Part shown: one piece after another, positions 6,233 to 20,978 of the stretch | Layout of the letters: the number at the start of each line of letters is the position of its first letter | Position numbering within the stretch: position 1 is the first letter of the stretch | Origin: Nitrospirota bacterium | GTDB taxonomy: Bacteria > Nitrospirota > Thermodesulfovibrionia > Thermodesulfovibrionales > Magnetobacteriaceae | Assembly (NCBI GenBank): GCA_015233725.1 | Contig: JADFXD010000025.1 | Span: forward strand, 1-35,380 | DNA length: 35,380 nt | Reading direction: 5' to 3' | The notes under the pieces: generated by a model | Told to the model about the DNA's origin: nothing | The model's input: only the letters and a program-made list of their open reading frames with translations | The model's database searches: none | Position numbers and translations under genes: made by a program

Positions 6233-7747
6233 ATGGATATTAAAGATTATACCTTCAAGCTAATCATGGCTGGTAATTCGAACACCCATTCGATGATCAA
6301 TGCTATTATACGTGCAACAATACAACTGAGGTCTAATACTAAGAAAGAAAAGGTGACATTTCACCAGATACATATTTTTCACACAGAAGAATCCCTCAAC
6401 GCACTATTTAAGACTACTGATAAATGGATTGAGAAATGGCAGGAAGCCCTATCCCAATATGATATTCCCATAACAGCGATAGTACATCATGTGACCAAAA
6501 TAGAAGGTGAAAACGTCAAGCGATTCGATGATATTGTGGAGCAATTGCGAACAATAGTAAACCCTCTTCATAATGAGCTTTATTACGTTGATATATCAGG
6601 AGGTATTTCGTCATTAAAGACTATCTTAGCTATATTTGCATATGTCCTTGATATAGAGCATGTCTATTCGTTGGAGGTAAGTTTCTCTAAGGACCCGGAA
6701 ACAAGAAAGAAACAGTCGGGACTATTCTACAAGCAAATAGAAGCAGAAGGGCTTGACATCAAATATACCAAACTTCCACCAATTAAAAAGTTTGATGAGT
6801 TTGGACGATCTAATTACACAGAAATCCTTAGACATCGCCAGATTATTGACGACATTACAAGCAGCATGAAACAGTTGCTTCCTAAACACTTTAATTTGGA
6901 GCATTTGCGCTCATCCTTGTTATCTGGTATAGACTCTCGACTTATTGCAGAAGTAACAGGGGAAAGTTATAACTATCGCAATTCGGTATTTTCTTTTTCA
7001 GCCGGTATTGAGGAGGTCGTAAATATAATCTTAAACATAACAAATAATTCAAGCATAGAGAAAGAAACCTTGGGGGTTAAATTAGGAGAAATAAGAAAGT
7101 TGTGTGCAAGTAAAGACAAATATTTTATAAATGAAGAAGTTTTAGAAAGTCTAACAAAATTGATGAGTGGAATTCGTAACAACATAGCCCATCCTAACCT
7201 TGAAAAAGAACAAAGCAAAGAACTTTTAGCAACCCAATCACACCTGTCCGGACAGTTGGCAATAACATTCATAAAATTCACTATTAATGCACTCTTGCCA
7301 TTTTTAGAGCAAGATGGCAGAATTATTGAGATTCAAGGCGTAGATCATAAACAAGAAGATAACGCCATTTTTTACTTCGGATTCGATGGAGATGCAACTG
7401 GTGATTATCTTGAAACTGCGTTTGTAATGTCGGGTAAGGATGAAGAAGAGGTACAGATGAGAAGTAATATTTTGCATAAAGCCATCGCTACACTGAAAAA
7501 GTTAATATATAAAACAACAAAGGATCACAAATCTATAATCTTTGCAGAAGGTGACAACATACTATTTAAGTCTAAATTTGACAATACACTCCTTAATGAA
7601 ATACAGCTCGCATATAAAAAAGAAACTGGATTATCCAGCAGCATAGGATATGGAAAGACCTTAAGAGATGTTATGATAGCGCTGCGACTAGCTAAGGCCA
7701 AAAATGGGGATAGCATTGTGGGCATAAGCATTTCAGGTCAATGTTAA
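6233..7747 (+). CDS. Single-chain CARF-HEPN-mCpol protein: predicted cyclic-oligonucleotide synthase, sensor and RNase
   Basis: A 504-residue protein with three recognisable parts. Residues 1-170: Rossmann-like CARF domain with the ligand-loop motif YYVDISGGISSLK (117-129), like the D-(I/L)-T/S-G-G loop of Csm6/Csx1. Residues 200-360: helical HEPN-like region with R315-NNIA-H320, the Rx4-6H RNase motif. Residues 375-504: palm-type nucleotidyltransferase resembling the minimal CRISPR polymerase (mCpol): YFGFDGDATGDYLE with D385 and D387 as metal ligands, FAEGDNILF (437-445) at the place of the GGDD loop, and GYGKTLRDVMIALRLAKAK (472-490). Such domains make cyclic oligonucleotides that CARF-type sensors read. 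No cas gene, CRISPR array or second effector lies beside it, so synthase, sensor and toxin appear to be one chain. It is clearly richer in A+T than its neighbours and splits a lipid operon, suggesting transfer. Domain calls are from motifs by eye; the order of domains is firm, the fold assignments are inference. Confidence 0.78.
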   Translation: MDIKDYTFKLIMAGNSNTHSMINAIIRATIQLRSNTKKEKVTFHQIHIFHTEESLNALFKTTDKWIEKWQEALSQYDIPITAIVHHVTKIEGENVKRFDDIVEQLRTIVNPLHNELYYVDISGGISSLKTILAIFAYVLDIEHVYSLEVSFSKDPETRKKQSGLFYKQIEAEGLDIKYTKLPPIKKFDEFGRSNYTEILRHRQIIDDITSSMKQLLPKHFNLEHLRSSLLSGIDSRLIAEVTGESYNYRNSVFSFSAGIEEVVNIILNITNNSSIEKETLGVKLGEIRKLCASKDKYFINEEVLESLTKLMSGIRNNIAHPNLEKEQSKELLATQSHLSGQLAITFIKFTINALLPFLEQDGRIIEIQGVDHKQEDNAIFYFGFDGDATGDYLETAFVMSGKDEEEVQMRSNILHKAIATLKKLIYKTTKDHKSIIFAEGDNILFKSKFDNTLLNEIQLAYKKETGLSSSIGYGKTLRDVMIALRLAKAKNGDSIVGISISGQC

Positions 7748-7751
7748 GGCA

Positions 7752-7858
7752 TAAAGAGGGGGGGATAGGTGCACGCCTGGAGCGAAAAAGACCAGGAGCG
7801 TCCTGGAGCGAAAAAGAAGCTCCGCCGCCCCCTTTTTTTCTCTCTTTTCTTAGGACTG
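7752..7858. repeat. Palindromic repeat cluster right of the CARF-HEPN-mCpol gene
   Basis: Contains GGGGGGG, two copies of CCTGGAGCGAAAAAGA about 26 bp apart, the hairpin CCAGGAGCGTCCTGG (7792-7806), and an AAGCTCCGCCGCCCCC arm. The same modules occur at 9050-9130, 16630-16655, 19010-19085 and 29197-29260. It may serve as a terminator for the gene before it, since a pyrimidine-rich TTTTTTTCTC run follows. Confidence 0.6.
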
Positions 7859-7860
7859 AA

Positions 7861-8235
7861 CTATGCCAGCAGTATTACAGTTGCGGCGGCGTAGTCGGCG
7901 GTGTGGGAGATGGAGACGGTGGCCTCTTCGATGTTGCGCCGGTTCATCAATGCCCTGATCCAACCCTTCAGCGTTAGCGTTGGCCTGCCGGAGGGTTGAT
8001 TGTCAACCTCTATGTCCTGGAAGACGCCCATTGTTGTAAAGCCAATGCCAATGGCCTTGAGCATTGCCTCTTTTGCCGCAAACCGCCCGGCAAGCGACTC
8101 ATAAGGCCTGTTCAAACGCATACACACCATGCGCTCCTTTTCCGTAAAGATGTCCATCATAAACTGTGTGTTTCTGGATGCCACGTCCTTGAACCTCGGT
8201 ATGTAAACGATATCCAGCCCCTGAAACAGACGCAT
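7861..8235 (-). CDS. acpS: Holo-[acyl-carrier-protein] synthase (4'-phosphopantetheinyl transferase)
   Basis: Transfers the 4'-phosphopantetheine arm of CoA to acyl-carrier protein. At 124 residues it has the typical AcpS size. Magnesium-ligand motifs are present: GLDIV (D8) near the N-terminus and FAAKEAMLKAIG in the middle, plus VSISHTADYAAA near the end. The ATG overlaps the fabG stop (TGATG), so translation is coupled to fabG. An AcpS next to a reductase, a dehydratase and a ketosynthase suggests a dedicated carrier protein, but its gene is not in this window. Confidence 0.92.
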   Translation of the reverse strand: MRLFQGLDIVYIPRFKDVASRNTQFMMDIFTEKERMVCMRLNRPYESLAGRFAAKEAMLKAIGIGFTTMGVFQDIEVDNQPSGRPTLTLKGWIRALMNRRNIEEATVSISHTADYAAATVILLA

Positions 8236-8972
8236 CAGGATACGCTCAATCCGCCGTCAACGGCTATGGCCTGTCCCGTTATGTAGTCCGATGCGGGGGA
8301 TGCCAAAAACAACACAAGGTCGGCCACATCGGAGGGCGTTCCAAACCTCCCTGCGGGGATGTCCTTGAGTACCTCCTCGCCGGCTCGCTTTCTGACCCTC
8401 TTGCTCATATCCGTGAGTATCATCCCTGGCAGGACGGCATTTACCTGTATCCCCTTGGGGGCAAGCTCAACGGCACACGCCCTGGTGAAGGATATCACCC
8501 CGCCCTTTGAGGCCGCGTAGTTGGACTGTCCCCGCGTACATTTAACAGCCGCGATGGAGGCCAGGTTCACGATCTTGCCGGCGTGGTTGACTATCATCAG
8601 CTCGGCGGCCATGCGACTGCACAGAAACACCGCATTGAGATTGACATCCATTACACCTTGCCAGTCGGGCAGTTCCATTGCCAGCAGGAGCTTGTCCTTG
8701 ATGATGCCGGCGTTATTTATAAGGATGTCAAGGCGTCCATACTGTCTTTTCACGTGCTCAAAGAGCCCCTTGACCTCTGGTTCCCGGGTGATATCGGCCT
8801 TGAAGATTTCGCCGTTTTGACCCATCTGCAGCAGCAGCGACGCCGCAAGTTCGCCAGAGCCATTATAGGCAGCAACAACCCTGACACCCGCCCTGGCAAG
8901 CCTCAGCGATATCTCCCTGCCAATCCCCCTGGCCCCGCCAGTGACAATGGCTACCCTGCCAGTTAAATCCAT
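8235..8972 (-). CDS. fabG: 3-oxoacyl-ACP reductase, short-chain dehydrogenase family (FabG-like)
   Basis: NADPH-dependent reductase of the 3-ketoacyl intermediate, 245 residues, the usual FabG length. The nucleotide site TGGARGIG (11-18), the NNAG motif (86-89), the catalytic Ser139 and Y152-x3-K156 (YAASK) are intact, and the C-terminus VDGG is typical. First gene of the - strand set fabG-acpS-(interrupted)-dehydratase-ketosynthase. The label FabG describes the family; whether it serves the main fatty-acid pathway or a special lipid is unknown. Confidence 0.9.
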
Positions 8973-9007: not shown

Positions 9008-9135
9008 AACACCAAGGGGTCAAGAAATAAAAACAGGAAGAGAAGAAAAAAAAGGGGCGGCGGAGCTTCTTTACCGCTCCAGGACGCTCCTGGCCCCCTT
9101 CAGACCCCCCTGCACCCTTACCCCATAATTCTCAA
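9008..9135. repeat. MITE-related palindromic repeat cluster
   Basis: Reverse-orientation module: GGGGCGGCGGAGCTTCTTT, hairpin CCAGGACGCTCCTGG (9079-9093), GGCCCCCTTCAGACCCCCC and CCCCATAATTCTCAATC, matching the inner parts of the elements at 17686 and 20826. No terminal repeats remain. It fills the gap between the KAP-like gene and fabG. Confidence 0.6.
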
Positions 9136-9171: not shown

Positions 9172-12100
9172 TTACGATGTTGCGTTTGTTGAACCTCGTT
9201 GCGGGTAGTAGCTTTCGGGATCATAAAGCGTATCGCCTTCAGTTCTCTCTCTGGTTATATCGATCATTTCCTTAATCTGTCCACTGTTTATCCTGAATCT
9301 TTCAACAGCGGCGTAGAAATGATACAGGCTGTCGTTAAAGTCGTCATTTAGATAGTACATCGTTTCAATCATATTTTTGTAGGCCTTTCTTTCGCTGTGT
9401 GTTTCTTTTGCACACAGGCAGTGATATCTGGCCATTTCATATTGATATTTTGTATCAATCGTTATCATTTCTGACGTACCAATAAGTTTTTTGAGAGTGT
9501 CTTCAATATTAGTCTGATGACTTTGTTTATTAAGAGGATTATAAAACTTCTCAAATATACGGTAGGCACGATAGTAATCGCACCAAATGGCAAGTTTTAG
9601 GTAAGTTGAAGCTATAAATGAATGGTTTGCATCATAAGAGAATCCATAAGTTTTACATATCTTAATTATTTCACGTAGGCAGAAAATAGAATCTGTTATT
9701 AAAAATTCGATAACAAACTGAGATTCTATATCCTTTCTAAAGGCATCTTTTATGGCTGACTTGTTGATTGAGACAATTGTAATGAGTTTATTAAACGATA
9801 TTATAATATCTTTCTTAATTTTATTTAATGGGTCATATGGTTTTCCTACAAGTTTATAATTCTGGTAATCGTCTTTCATTGACTCCATATAATTAGTATT
9901 ATGCGCCAAATAAACAAGAAGATTCTCATTCATATTTGCTTTAAAATTAAGTTCTATAACTCTATTTCTAATTGTATAGATAGTTGTATACGGTGAGATA
10001 AAATTATCATTAAATGCAACATCAGGACATTCACATTTTAATTTTATTTCGCTATAATTAATGATAACTTCTCGTATATCTCCAGAGAGTGAAAGATTAT
10101 CATAATCAACTTTATCGGAATTATCAAAAATTTCTTTAACCTTTTCTATTTCTAATCTGTGGACGTTTTCATATGACTTGTAAATACCCTGGATTATTCT
10201 CTTAATTATAGTGCTTCCTATCGTTTTAATTAAAAGCTTGTCGCATCTTATAATCAATTTATCAGGTGATACCTTAAGGCATTCTTGGATCAAAGATAAA
10301 ATCTTGCTAAACTGAAAAGAATATTCTTTGTGCATTCTCGCAGTTATAAAAAACAACGCAGAAGCACAATAAAAAGCAAAAACCTCATACAGTCTATTGT
10401 CCTTATAATGTGTATCAATAAACGTAATAAGGTTATCAGCATTAATGGTAATATCGTCATCATCTATACTTCCCAAGAAGTCAATGAAATCATCAGTTTG
10501 AATAAGTTTGGGTTCTACGCATGAGAGAAACGTATCTCCGATGTTAGATAATACATTTCCTATGGCCTTTGATACGATAGCATTCTTTTGAATGTAATGT
10601 CTGGAATCGTCATCTACGATTTTTTTCAGCATATTAATAAGAATATTTTTTGTGTTGGCCTTGCCTAAAAAAATTGAAGCTACTATTTCGATCCCAAGGT
10701 GATCTCTACACAATATCCTAAGACTTTTCATGTAGTACTCACAGGCTCGACATGGGTATTTAATTTTCTTGGCATCTTCAGTTTTTATTTTATCTACATT
10801 CACAGGTCCTGAACAAAAACCATTTTTTCTAAAACTGAAAAGAGCTTTCAATCTATTTGGCTTGATAGATTCATTGCCAGGAATTAGTCCAGTCTTATAA
10901 TATAAAATATCTCCTATTTTACAAGAAAATTCTGACTCTATAATAAACTTTTCTGAAATGTTTTCACTTCTAAGACTTTTGTGTTCTTCCTCAATTCTAT
11001 CGATATCACTATTGGTTATTCCATTTAAACTTTTCTTTTCAATAATTTGAAGTTTAGCTAGTAAGGGTTGGTAAATATGACGTTTATTTTCAAAAACAGA
11101 CATGGGAGAGTTTGATTTATTTATATTATTTATAACTTTTTCCTTGTGCTCAATAATAACAGATGTCAGTTTTTCATACGTTGTAAAAGCAGACGTAAAT
11201 GATTTTCCCTTTTCGTAGGCAAGGCCAAGTAACATCATAGCCCTTATATAGATATAAAGTGTTGAGATGTCCATTTTTTCTATGTCGATAGAGCGTAACT
11301 GTTGGATAGATTCCAGTAACTCGATTATAGCATCATGATATTCTTCATCATAAAAATACAGTTCTCCCAAGATCATATGAACAAAACTGATAGATTCGAT
11401 AAATGCAATATTTTTGTCTGAGTTAAGAAAATTGCCATATTTTTTTTCTAGGCTTTTCTGGTAGGCTTTATAATGTCTTTTTAGTGACAGTGACTCATCG
11501 AGGGTAAAATTAAAGGCAGCAGACTCTATTTCTGATATCTTTGACAGATATGAAATCTCATCTGCCATTCTCTTAATAAACCTGAAGTTGTATGGGCCGC
11601 TTAATATCTCATGAATATTATTTTTTGATAGAAACTGTATAATTCTCTCTATAAGTTCTCTTAATTCAGGAGCTTTGTTTATATCTAATATCTCCGGAGT
11701 TACCTCAAGACTCCTCCATGTAAAGGCATGTCTATGATATTTATATATATGATCCAGTATAAAGGCAGTTGAAACCAATATCTTATCACCAAAATCTTTC
11801 ATTGTTCTCTTTATGGCTAGAATAATAGGTGTCGCAATATATGAAACCAACCCTAGCGTATACTGATCATAAAAGCCAAACTCAAGGTACATATTATTTG
11901 AATTTCTACCTGCACATAAGTTTTTTGATGATTCCAATTCCTTCTTAGGTGGTTGTACAATGTGTTTCTCAAAATAACGTGTAAGCTTTTTGGGTGAACC
12001 GTTACTTCTGTATGTTAGATAGGTTATAAAATTATTGATGGTCACAATCAATTTTTCAATCTTTAGTTTTTCAATTGGATGCTTTTTCATATCATCTTGT

Positions 12101-14193
12101 TTGATATTAAATATCTCATCCTGTAGATACTCACGATAGGTTTTTAGTGAATCTTTAGGAGCCTTCTTTTCTTTACGAGTCCTTTCTTCTCTATAATAAT
12201 TTGGAATAAGGTATTTACAAACATACTGTTCTGTCATGTTTGTAATGTCGTATATCTTTTGATCGGTTGAGTCAGTCAAAAAGCTGTTTACATAAATAAC
12301 ATCATGGAAGATACTACCCATAAAATAATTCCTGTCAGATACATCAGCAAGTGAGGCGTCGTACATTTCTCTCCCAGCGATAAATATAAATTTAGCCTTT
12401 GCTGTGGTAAGAAAATACTTAAGATTTGACAGTATCTTTAATATAACATGCTGACGCTCTATAGGTTCTTGTATTGAAAGTGGTACGCTTCCGCTAACGG
12501 TTAAGGCCTGTGTTTCTTCTTTTTCTATTGTATTTACATAAGGTTCAATCTTGTCCAACTCATCAAAGATGAAGATAAATTGAGGTCTCCCTATCAATTT
12601 TGGAATCTTGTCTATTTCGTTTAAAACATCTATAAGTTGTTTTTCTATTTCACGAGCATCCGCCCTCGGATATGCCTTGCTTCGCCTATCAAATATTCTA
12701 AGCAATGGAAATTTTTCCTTTATTATCGATGCCTCAGCGCCGCTTTCTCTGGTAACCTGAGCATTGATACTGTCGTTTAATTCAGTTATGTTTCTGCGAA
12801 CAGTTCCAAACGTCCGCATCCCAAACAATTTATACCTGAATGGAAGTCCTCTTAAATACCATATCATAACAAAGCACACAATAAAGACATAATCTATTCG
12901 TTCAGGAAAAATACTAATGTTAGTTAAATTTTTAAATATCGGTATGTCATTGAGCAAAGCAATAAACTTATAAAACATTGTGTTTATTATAGTATCGAGA
13001 TAAATAGTTATAGTTTGTATTATTTTTCTATCCTTATCTTCTTTACATTCTATATTATTATTTCGCTCACATTTTCCAAATATTTTTTGCTGACTTGGAA
13101 AATACTTTACTATTTTACACCTTATTTCAATTTTACAACTTGTCATATTATTGGACATATTATTTGACACATAATTGGGCATCTTAATAGAATATATCAT
13201 ACTTGATAAGGTGAAAATAAAGATTAGTTTAAATAGTAGCCAAGGTATATCAGCTAAAGATAAACGTATTCCAATTCTTGAGAATTCATTAAACTGGATT
13301 ATAACATTTTTTGCTATTAGCCTCAATATATCAATTTCTTTTAGATTATCGTGTCCAAGATTAATCCTCACGTAAATACGACGATTATAATTAAGGTATC
13401 TAATTATAAAATCACGAAAGTAGTGCAAAATCTCAACAAAGTAGTGCCAATTTTTTATTAAAAGGTTATTTTCTTTTTTTAATTCTATTTTATGCTCTTT
13501 CAATATATAAAAAACAGTATTTCCTAAATATAAGCATAAAATAAAGAATAAATACCAGTCTAACTTGACTGCATAGCCAGAAATATTCTTTGATGAGATT
13601 TCGGTTGCTCCTATAGGAGTTGCAAGTAAATAAATTATCGACGCTAATAAAATATCTTGGAATAAGGCTTTTGCTTCAAGCTTGGATATTTCTTTTTTAG
13701 ATATTATAAATATGTCCTTAATAGGCTTTAGAATTTTTGTTTTACCACTTTTCAGATTTTCTCTTTCCAAATCACTTTTATAGAAATAAAAATAAAACAT
13801 AATGATTAGAATAATATTTATCCATATACTAAGAGAGTTTATCTCTATTAACGGTAATAAAAGCAGTAGCAACGCAATTCTGAAGTATCTCGACCATAAA
13901 GTGTTGTTCTTTCCGGACGTAGTTACCTTAGCAATAACCTTGCTAACCAGACTCGTCTTGCCCATCCCCTTAAAGCCGGTGACCAAATACGCCCCGGACT
14001 TTGACTCGTCGTTGGTGAGAATGTTTGTCAGCCTGTCTATTAACCGCTTGCGGCCAATAAACCTGCCGTCTGAGTTATCTATCTCCGAGGGGCCGTGGAA
14101 AAACGTATAACCATGCAACTCAAGATATATCCTCTTGATCTTCGACGAGTAATCCGATAAGGTTGCCCGTTGCTCTTCTTCTGTGTTTCCCAT
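9172..14193 (-). CDS. Giant membrane P-loop NTPase, KAP-like, with long helical C-terminal region
   Basis: A 1673-residue protein. Walker A is GFKGMGKT (73-80) and Walker B is FIFIFDELDK (539-548). Between them are four to five hydrophobic segments (about 106-137, 180-197, 213-232, 314-336 and 433-450). Membrane helices inserted between the two Walker motifs are the hallmark of KAP-family NTPases, which include the phage-exclusion protein PifA. A second ATPase-type segment, RINLGHDNLKEIDILRLIA, is at about 276-294. Residues after about 650 are Lys/Ile-rich helical repeats without a family I recognise; TPR-like packing is plausible for 900-1100. Base composition is far more A+T-rich than the flanks, suggesting horizontal transfer. 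A phage-defence or membrane-damage role is inference. It could instead be a STAND-type sensor of another class. Confidence 0.6.
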   Translation of the reverse strand: MGNTEEEQRATLSDYSSKIKRIYLELHGYTFFHGPSEIDNSDGRFIGRKRLIDRLTNILTNDESKSGAYLVTGFKGMGKTSLVSKVIAKVTTSGKNNTLWSRYFRIALLLLLLPLIEINSLSIWINIILIIMFYFYFYKSDLERENLKSGKTKILKPIKDIFIISKKEISKLEAKALFQDILLASIIYLLATPIGATEISSKNISGYAVKLDWYLFFILCLYLGNTVFYILKEHKIELKKENNLLIKNWHYFVEILHYFRDFIIRYLNYNRRIYVRINLGHDNLKEIDILRLIAKNVIIQFNEFSRIGIRLSLADIPWLLFKLIFIFTLSSMIYSIKMPNYVSNNMSNNMTSCKIEIRCKIVKYFPSQQKIFGKCERNNNIECKEDKDRKIIQTITIYLDTIINTMFYKFIALLNDIPIFKNLTNISIFPERIDYVFIVCFVMIWYLRGLPFRYKLFGMRTFGTVRRNITELNDSINAQVTRESGAEASIIKEKFPLLRIFDRRSKAYPRADAREIEKQLIDVLNEIDKIPKLIGRPQFIFIFDELDKIEPYVNTIEKEETQALTVSGSVPLSIQEPIERQHVILKILSNLKYFLTTAKAKFIFIAGREMYDASLADVSDRNYFMGSIFHDVIYVNSFLTDSTDQKIYDITNMTEQYVCKYLIPNYYREERTRKEKKAPKDSLKTYREYLQDEIFNIKQDDMKKHPIEKLKIEKLIVTINNFITYLTYRSNGSPKKLTRYFEKHIVQPPKKELESSKNLCAGRNSNNMYLEFGFYDQYTLGLVSYIATPIILAIKRTMKDFGDKILVSTAFILDHIYKYHRHAFTWRSLEVTPEILDINKAPELRELIERIIQFLSKNNIHEILSGPYNFRFIKRMADEISYLSKISEIESAAFNFTLDESLSLKRHYKAYQKSLEKKYGNFLNSDKNIAFIESISFVHMILGELYFYDEEYHDAIIELLESIQQLRSIDIEKMDISTLYIYIRAMMLLGLAYEKGKSFTSAFTTYEKLTSVIIEHKEKVINNINKSNSPMSVFENKRHIYQPLLAKLQIIEKKSLNGITNSDIDRIEEEHKSLRSENISEKFIIESEFSCKIGDILYYKTGLIPGNESIKPNRLKALFSFRKNGFCSGPVNVDKIKTEDAKKIKYPCRACEYYMKSLRILCRDHLGIEIVASIFLGKANTKNILINMLKKIVDDDSRHYIQKNAIVSKAIGNVLSNIGDTFLSCVEPKLIQTDDFIDFLGSIDDDDITINADNLITFIDTHYKDNRLYEVFAFYCASALFFITARMHKEYSFQFSKILSLIQECLKVSPDKLIIRCDKLLIKTIGSTIIKRIIQGIYKSYENVHRLEIEKVKEIFDNSDKVDYDNLSLSGDIREVIINYSEIKLKCECPDVAFNDNFISPYTTIYTIRNRVIELNFKANMNENLLVYLAHNTNYMESMKDDYQNYKLVGKPYDPLNKIKKDIIISFNKLITIVSINKSAIKDAFRKDIESQFVIEFLITDSIFCLREIIKICKTYGFSYDANHSFIASTYLKLAIWCDYYRAYRIFEKFYNPLNKQSHQTNIEDTLKKLIGTSEMITIDTKYQYEMARYHCLCAKETHSERKAYKNMIETMYYLNDDFNDSLYHFYAAVERFRINSGQIKEMIDITRERTEGDTLYDPESYYPQRGSTNATS

Positions 14194-14205
14194 ATGACAA
14201 GTATA
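14194..14205 (-). promoter_or_regulatory. -10 box of the KAP-like gene; predicted leaderless transcript
   Basis: Read on the - strand, TATACT (14205-14200, five of six to TATAAT) is followed by only 6 nt and then the ATG at 14193. No good -35 box is visible at the normal distance and no Shine-Dalgarno sequence can fit. Confidence 0.4.
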
Positions 14206-14329
14206 AATGCCGACAAAAACAAAAATCCAGTGAATTCTTCTTCACATGCAGAAAGCATTATATATTGAAACCGTTATATGAATCATCAAAGCGCATAAAC
14301 AAATCGTTGATCCACCAATCATAGCCACG

Positions 14330-14405
14330 CAGGAAGGGGTCAAGGGGGCTGGCCCCCTTGCAGGGGGGTAAGGGGGGGCGGAGCCGCCCCCTTTCTTGTT
14401 TTTTG
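14330..14405. repeat. Inner fragment of the MITE family
   Basis: AGGGGGCTGGCCCCCTTG and GGGGGGCGGAGCCGCCCCC form two strong hairpins, as in the elements at 17686, 20826 and 31032, and are followed by a T-rich run. On the + strand the second hairpin plus its T-run looks like an intrinsic terminator; it lies next to the 3' end of the glycoside-hydrolase-like gene. Confidence 0.65.
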
Positions 14406-16732: not shown

Positions 16733-17680
16733 ATGAATAATGTCACAGAGACGAGTGCGCATATATGCCTTCTGTATAAGAAGCCTGAAGAGCAGTTTAA
16801 AGTAATAATGCCTTTTATCCGAAATGGGCTTGAGAGTGGTGAACAGTGCATTTATATCTGCAATGACAACAGCATAGATTGTCTTTTTAATCTTATGGAA
16901 GAGGGAGGCGTTGATGCTTACAAGGCGGTAAAATCGGACGCCTTGATAGTAATAACCGCACAAGAGGCATATCTGCAAGGAGGCCGTTTTTCGCCTGATT
17001 TTATGTTACGGTTTTTAGATAAAGCTATAATAAGCTCAAAAAATGCTGGTTTTAAGAGGCTTAGGGGGGCAGGAGAGGCGACATGGTCTGTAGACAGCAA
17101 TGCAGATATGGAATTATTAATAGAGTACGAGGCTAAAGTAAACTATATCTTTGAGAGAAATGATGTTGTTGCCTTGTGCCAGTACAATATCGGCAAGTTC
17201 TCCCCGGAAGTTCTCATTGATATGTTGTACACCCATCCTATGGTAATGTATGATAATGTTATGAGAAAAAACTTTTACTATATTCCACCGGATGAATATT
17301 TAGAAACCAGCAGAGGTTCGCTAACCCTGGAGAGAATGCTTTTGAATCTGGCAAGCATTGAAACAACCATACATGAACGTGCAAAGAATGTCCTTGAATC
17401 AATAATAGACGAGCTCAGAGACAAGCTCCTTAAAGTAGATGGTATCCCCACAACTGATGAAAAACCACCTATGAATCCAAATTTGGACAAAATAAAAACA
17501 CTCACAAAACGTGAGATAGAAATACTAAGATTGATAGCAAAAGGGCTAACAAAAACTAAAATCGCTGATATCCTCAATATAAACGATAACACAGTTACCC
17601 TCCACAATGCACACATTATGAGAAAACTCTCCCTAAATAGAACAATAGACCTGGTTTTATTTGCAATAAATAATCTTTGA
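16733..17680 (+). CDS. MEDS-domain sensor with C-terminal LuxR-type HTH
   Basis: 315-residue transcription regulator. Residues 1-175 match the MEDS sensory domain (methanogen/methylotroph, DcmR type): HICLLYKKPEEQFKVIMPFI, then GLESGEQCIYICND, GRFSPDFML and RGAGEATWS. A coiled linker (195-240) leads to a LuxR/FixJ helix-turn-helix at 257-300 (LTKREIEILRLIAKGLTKTK). MEDS domains are thought to sense small organic compounds or redox state in DcmR-like proteins; the ligand here is unknown. It has no receiver domain. No neighbouring gene is an obvious target. No ribosome site precedes the ATG, which agrees with a leaderless transcript. Confidence 0.85.
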   Translation: MNNVTETSAHICLLYKKPEEQFKVIMPFIRNGLESGEQCIYICNDNSIDCLFNLMEEGGVDAYKAVKSDALIVITAQEAYLQGGRFSPDFMLRFLDKAIISSKNAGFKRLRGAGEATWSVDSNADMELLIEYEAKVNYIFERNDVVALCQYNIGKFSPEVLIDMLYTHPMVMYDNVMRKNFYYIPPDEYLETSRGSLTLERMLLNLASIETTIHERAKNVLESIIDELRDKLLKVDGIPTTDEKPPMNPNLDKIKTLTKREIEILRLIAKGLTKTKIADILNINDNTVTLHNAHIMRKLSLNRTIDLVLFAINNL

Positions 17681-20825: not shown

Positions 20826-20978
20826 AGTACCTGCCCATAAATAATTATATACGAGAAGATGAAGAAAGAAAGGGGCGGCTCCGCCCCCCTTTAGAACCCC
20901 CTGCAAGGGGGCCAGCCCCCTTGACCCCATAATTCTTAATCCTAAATATTTATATAAAAACTTTTGTCCATGTACTTA
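20824..20978 (-). mobile_element. Full-length ~151-bp MITE-like element, opposite orientation, TA target duplication
   Basis: Element 20826-20976 starts AGTACCTGCCCATAA and ends TTTTGTCCATGTACT, with TA on both sides. It is the reverse orientation of the copy at 17686-17832. Hairpins GGGGGCGGAGCCGCCCCTTT-type and AAGGGGGCTGGCCCCCTTG-type are both present when read on the - strand. Confidence 0.7.

Follow-up and report, generated by a model that had tools for sequence, protein, structure and literature searches.

An A+T-rich ATPase gene beside a fatty-acid operon

The window analyzed here is a 35,380-nucleotide stretch of DNA from a Nitrospirota genome (contig G000:C120). Its minus strand contains an ATG-initiated open reading frame of 1673 codons at 9172-14193 with zero internal stops, in full agreement with the original prediction made from the same DNA (Table 1). 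The G+C content of the gene is 0.319 compared to ~0.5 around it, which bears out the strong A+T-richness noted earlier, and all copies of the gene are A+T-rich (0.27-0.36). Five further relatives longer than 1000 residues share 41-65% identity with the window ATPase over the alignment, and comparison with the copy in genome G001 yields a dN of 0.24 and a dS of 1.04. The resulting dN/dS of ~0.23 indicates, at the sequence level, that the gene is under purifying selection. Given these five relatives and the excess of dS over dN, the reading frame is not a chance ORF. The ATPase evolves faster than its neighbors, with 65% identity to the G001 copy compared to 84% for both KAS and the DUF4015 protein. 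Approximately 60 bases directly 5′ of the gene are common to the window copy, a second copy in the same genome, and the G001 copy, and include the palindrome-like GTGAA..TTCAC; this block was not seen at the copies in G002, G009, G014, and G007.

Table 1 Position of the ATPase gene, its predicted protein segments, and neighboring features in the window.
Feature	Coordinates	Strand	Basis
CARF-HEPN-mCpol gene; neighbor, not part of the ATPase system	6233..7747	+	PADLOC, Pfam, synteny
acpS and fabG, fatty-acid genes between the two A+T-rich genes	7861..8972	-	
1673-aa split-core membrane ATPase gene	9172..14193	-	ORF; relatives in 6/19 family genomes; purifying selection indicated
Residues 935-1673: C-terminal half with invariant cysteines and a weak TPR match (985-1010)	9175..11391	-	
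Residues 549-760: conserved putative sensor/lid region (FIAGREMYDASLADVSDR; YRSNGSPKKLTRYFE)	11914..12549	-	Alignment
Walker B FIFIFDELDK (residues 539-548), then invariant IEP	12550..12579	-	Alignment
Residues 307-454: second insert, variable loop between two predicted membrane helices	12832..13275	-	Hydropathy; alignment
Residues 268-306: conserved block (RINLGHDNLKEIDILRLIAKN)	13276..13392	-	49-87% identity to other full-length members
Residues 99-267: first insert, four predicted membrane helices	13393..13899	-	Hydropathy; identity blocks
Residues 44-98: GR motif, Walker A (73-80), next helix; AAA_16 match begins here	13900..14064	-	
Upstream block with palindrome-like GTGAAGAAGAATTCAC, candidate promoter/operator	14194..14260	-	Common to second copy in own genome and G001

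The second A+T-rich gene matches CARF_HEPN_mCpol in PADLOC (E 1.5e-214) and mCpol in Pfam (3.5e-33), and its product shows an RNNIAH motif of the HEPN type. It lies 1424 bases from the ATPase gene, matching the 1.4 kb originally given, and sits between a fabZ-like gene and acpS, on the opposite strand, within a fatty-acid operon. Since fabG, acpS, fabZ, and KAS are contiguous and uninterrupted in G002 and G011, we interpret the mCpol gene as having been inserted in the lineage of the window. It occurs in one of the 19 family genomes and is missing from the 18 others, including all five others that carry the ATPase.

Several repeats and one further gene were noted in the window. acpS-fabG lies between two related inverted arms of 50 nt, at 7792-7841 and 9044-9093, and a G+C-rich palindromic REP-like repeat occurs at 14341-14391, 20871-20923, and elsewhere. 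We rejected the idea that the G+C-rich repeats on the flanks mark the borders of an element: the palindrome CAAGGGGGCNNGCCCCCTTG, allowing up to two mismatches, is present 251 times genome-wide compared to zero for a reversed control. At 16733-17680, a gene with a G+C content of ~0.39, below that of its surroundings, encodes a MEDS-domain sensor fused to a LuxR-type DNA-binding domain.

Predicted membrane helices split the P-loop core at two points

The Walker A (GFKGMGKT, residues 73-80) and Walker B (FIFIFDELDK, residues 539-548) motifs are located as originally predicted. Five to six hydrophobic segments separate them, with a similar pattern in the other full-length relatives, in line with the earlier proposal of membrane helices between the Walker motifs. 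Using a six-sequence alignment, we compared the window ATPase block by block with the four other full-length members. Identities amount to 51-80% for residues 44-98, 21-36% for 99-267, 49-87% for 268-306, 25-39% for 307-454, 25-65% for 455-506, 55-76% for 507-760, 53-82% for 761-935, and 15-76% across four C-terminal parts. The core blocks (44-98, 268-306, and 507-935) are thus 49-87% identical compared to 21-39% for the inserts, and the hydrophobic stretches coincide with the two variable blocks, 99-267 and 307-454. Residues 268-306 are read from sequence as strand 2 and a helix of the P-loop core, and the designations sensor and lid for residues 549-760 are likewise provisional.

Hydropathy predicts four helices between Walker A and the 268-306 block (at about 98-116, 120-138, 174-194, and 213-231) and two between this block and Walker B (at about 309-334 and 426-454). 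These calls combine two scales that disagree on some helices: one misses at least one helix in the window protein and in the G001 and G014 copies, while the other finds those helices and adds weaker segments, such as 402-420 of the window protein within the second insert. With an even helix count in each insert, the chain would cross back to the side on which it started, and both Walker motifs would share one side of the membrane. The variable loop of the second insert is presumed to lie outside the cytoplasm. Judged from the sequence, four and then two predicted membrane helices break the P-loop core at two places, and a long C-terminal half with TPR-like motifs comes after it.

The C-terminal ~740 residues are poorly recognizable and contain TPR-like motifs. 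Pfam places TPR_6 at 985-1010 in the window protein, below the curated cut-off, and finds TPR_2 in two of the six members and TPR_8 in one. The original view that the last ~1000 residues resemble no nameable family needs one correction, since TPR models match weakly at ~985-1010 and in some other members. Five cysteines (C1127, C1148, C1151, C1162, and C1225) are invariant in all six sequences and could form a metal site. AlphaFold2 models of residues 1-935 and 760-1673, built with only the window sequence and the relative L003 as input, reached a pLDDT of 32 and are unusable for assigning the fold. The G001 copy (L016:16600-17786) extends ~400 residues past the others; Alpha-amyl_C2 matches one of the six members (3.1e-8), probably within this tail.

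Family relationships of the ATPase core

In Pfam searches, the intact window protein matches AAA_16 (PF13191) over residues 44-95 only (8.5e-7, 30.0 bits, below the cut-off of 32.6), STAND-type and TPR models score still weaker, and KAP_NTPase (PF07693) gives no match at E ≤ 1. We also searched with a composite from which residues 99-267 and 307-454 were left out. Its AAA_16 match spans composite residues 30-218, continues through Walker B to profile position 144 of 167, and scores 34.9 bits, above the cut-off of 32.6. All five composites match AAA_16; nSTAND1 (best 1.9e-4), NPHP3_N, NACHT, and NB-ARC weakly match three to four of them, and KAP_NTPase matches two (best E 4.4e-4) and is not the best family. 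Neither the full alignment nor the composite gave a significant match among PDB sequences, the best hits being an engineered TPR protein (E 0.068) and TnsC (0.13). Matches of the composites to PHROGs are weak and mostly to generic ATPases.

Distribution and genomic context

The ATPase is found in the same six genomes in all distribution searches. A single-protein search produced matches in six of 60 genomes, the window's own included; profile A1 identified six of 230 genomes of the class and six of 19 of the family; and composite A3 identified six of 395 genomes of the phylum. Five of the 12 good-quality family genomes carry it. The in-depth search covered same-phylum genomes and the single-sequence search of genome contigs reaches only close relatives; within the genomes searched, the ATPase appears restricted to one Nitrospirota family. 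No relatives were found among phages, plasmids, or viral contigs. Relative L003 comes from ‘Nitrospirae bacterium MYbinv3’ (taxid 2032655, Nitrospirota), which is listed among the genomes compared in a paper on magnetotactic Nitrospirae (PMC8353452); its contig begins with the same 4300 bases as contig C34 of G002.

Full-length copies are present in the window, in G001, in G009 (two), and in G014. In G002, which is placed in the window's genus, N- and C-terminal parts lie at the ends of two contigs. The second copy in the window's own genome (G000:C77) is cut by a contig end and is 71% identical over 187 residues, G007 retains a truncated N-terminal remnant with stops, and a third copy in G009 is a C-terminal fragment. 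tRNA genes lie close to the G007 remnant (L026:9229-9304) and to the G002 C-terminal part (L018:4499-4693).

The window copy sits between fabG and DUF4015. The ATPase is absent beside fabG in both G002 and G011 and beside DUF4015 in the three related loci with enough flank (G001, G003, and G005; the G018 contig ends too soon). No immediate neighbor is common to the ten copies and fragments, whose neighbors form four weak pairs (27-32% identity), all further off. The ten neighbors scanned are mostly non-defense proteins, including an acetyl-CoA hydrolase, a MORN-repeat protein, and a histidine kinase; PADLOC flags two of them, a DUF1848 protein next to the G014 copy (RTasDUF1848, 1.3e-59) and a zinc-ribbon protein next to the G001 copy (DrmB, 5.9e-4). 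Directly upstream of both full G009 copies are A+T-rich genes for proteins of 411 and 421 residues with hydrophobic segments (L020:9978-11213 and L022:8844-10109). These overlap or nearly touch the ATPase gene and show no mutual similarity at 1e-8; they may represent a partner gene that is lost or absent elsewhere.

The small defense island originally hinted at is not supported by these comparisons: acpS and fabG intervene, the mCpol gene occurs in one of 19 family genomes, and the ATPase copies have no common close neighbor. Homologs do lie largely beside housekeeping genes, an arrangement the original prediction had set against its own reading, yet the sites differ between genomes, as expected of an accessory gene. 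Patchy, multi-copy, decaying, and fast-evolving yet selected, the ATPase is best read as an accessory STAND/KAP-like membrane signaling ATPase.

A putative membrane-anchored signaling ATPase

Our preferred explanation, which we hold at somewhat less than an even chance, is a stand-alone membrane-anchored signaling ATPase of the STAND/KAP/AAA_16-like group with the following mechanism. The interrupted pieces would come together as a single ATPase fold facing the cytoplasm, and the C-terminal half would serve as a helical repeat sensor that keeps the ATPase off. Binding of a trigger would allow ATP to drive oligomerization, which would in turn rearrange the membrane helices and either change permeability or send a signal across the membrane. 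No separate effector domain, including an N-terminal one, can be named in the protein, so this membrane-acting step is putative. The trigger would most plausibly be a phage or other intracellular stress and the outcome growth arrest, with the ATPase acting alone and not with the mCpol protein.

An immune role is plausible by analogy to KAP and STAND defense proteins and from the accessory behavior of the gene. PADLOC returned no match for the whole protein and, on composites, weak matches to mad8 in two of five and to STAND_TPR in one of five; a test for a catalogued defense protein match or conserved defense neighbors yielded neither. It is conceivable, if doubtful, that the ATPase represents a previously undescribed, family-restricted class of membrane-embedded STAND/KAP-like immune sensor, with sensing, switching, and membrane effector in one polypeptide. 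Such a sensor would combine a core that four and two membrane helices divide at two places with a long outer loop and a C-terminal repeat sensor of its own. If correct, this would provide a one-gene candidate sensor-effector in uncultured Nitrospirota and add to the few P-loop ATPases with a core threaded through the membrane.

The original prediction had called the protein a KAP-like membrane NTPase. KAP NTPases, among them PifA and Kidins220, are known for a layout in which membrane helices separate Walker A from Walker B in some members; it has fewer helices than the ATPase described here and is not known to include a second insertion point. PMC11846954 counts Tmn among the KAP NTPases and notes its two unusual transmembrane domains. 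The same layout, the two composites matching KAP_NTPase, and an hhalign probability of 78% to a local KAP alignment would fit a divergent true KAP, like PifA or Tmn, that gained extra membrane helices. We nonetheless regard this as improbable: the intact protein lacks a PF07693 match, AAA_16 is stronger and is found in every composite, and hhalign gives about the same probability (76%) to a local AAA_16 alignment, both alignments covering only the region around Walker A. The ATPase is thus about equally far from KAP and AAA_16, which themselves align over 233 columns at 91%. Real KAPs occur in 19 of 60 related genomes, and at most of the loci read they show the signatures G-x-W-G-x-G-K and DD-h-DR, whereas the ATPase family has G-M-G-K and FDE-h-DKIEP and neither KAP signature. 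The part of the claim that stands is a membrane P-loop NTPase with helices between the Walker motifs; judged by its sequence, the protein is KAP-like in layout, but neither profile nor signatures support membership of the family.

A lineage-specific physiological membrane ATPase with no immune role, acting in envelope stress, membrane organization, or transport regulation, is an alternative that we consider unlikely. It would account for the mostly non-defense neighbors, including fabG and DUF4015 around the window copy, for the strong conservation of the core and C-terminus (dN/dS ~0.23), and for the confinement to one Nitrospirota family. It sits poorly with the presence in only six of 19 family genomes (five of 12 of good quality), the unshared neighbors, and the remnants and extra copies. 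These same remnants, the variable sites, and the two copies near tRNA genes could also point to a selfish or mobile element that keeps the gene for its own advantage, but the lack of phage, plasmid, or viral-contig relatives and of any integrase or transposase model among the ten neighbors scanned makes this rather more improbable. Finally, the ATPase could be the membrane effector of one defense module with the CARF-HEPN-mCpol gene, controlled by an mCpol nucleotide signal; both genes are A+T-rich and 1.4 kb apart, and membrane effectors occur in published mCpol systems (PMC12657218). Two nearby A+T-rich genes need not form one defense island. The genes lie on opposite strands with acpS and fabG between them, the fatty-acid operon is uninterrupted in G002 and G011, mCpol occurs in one family genome compared to six for the ATPase, and the mCpol protein already has a HEPN effector by family match. 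A shared module is therefore very improbable and already largely refuted.

Comparison with known systems

A literature search for STAND NTPases with transmembrane helices, antiphage activity, and TPRs found no paper. The accessible portion of the Panoptes paper PMC12657218 describes mCpol genes that are either coupled with HEPN and membrane effectors or fused to them, and contains nothing on the Nitrospirota ATPase; a term search of a further Panoptes paper, PMC12657230, gave no hit. Compared to Panoptes and other mCpol systems, mCpol is here only a window neighbor of the ATPase, and the linkage is not conserved. The ATPase resembles AAA_16/STAND proteins with TPR sensors in its best composite profile match, in the GR motif before Walker A, and in its TPR-like C-terminal repeats, but its core is split by membrane helices, its TPR matches are weak, and it has no recognized N-terminal effector. 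With the KAP proteins PifA, Kidins220, and Tmn it shares a P-loop with helices between the Walker motifs, a sporadic distribution, and disrupted copies. It differs from them in having six predicted helices at two insertion points, other Walker signatures, ~740 extra C-terminal residues, and an intact protein without a KAP profile match.
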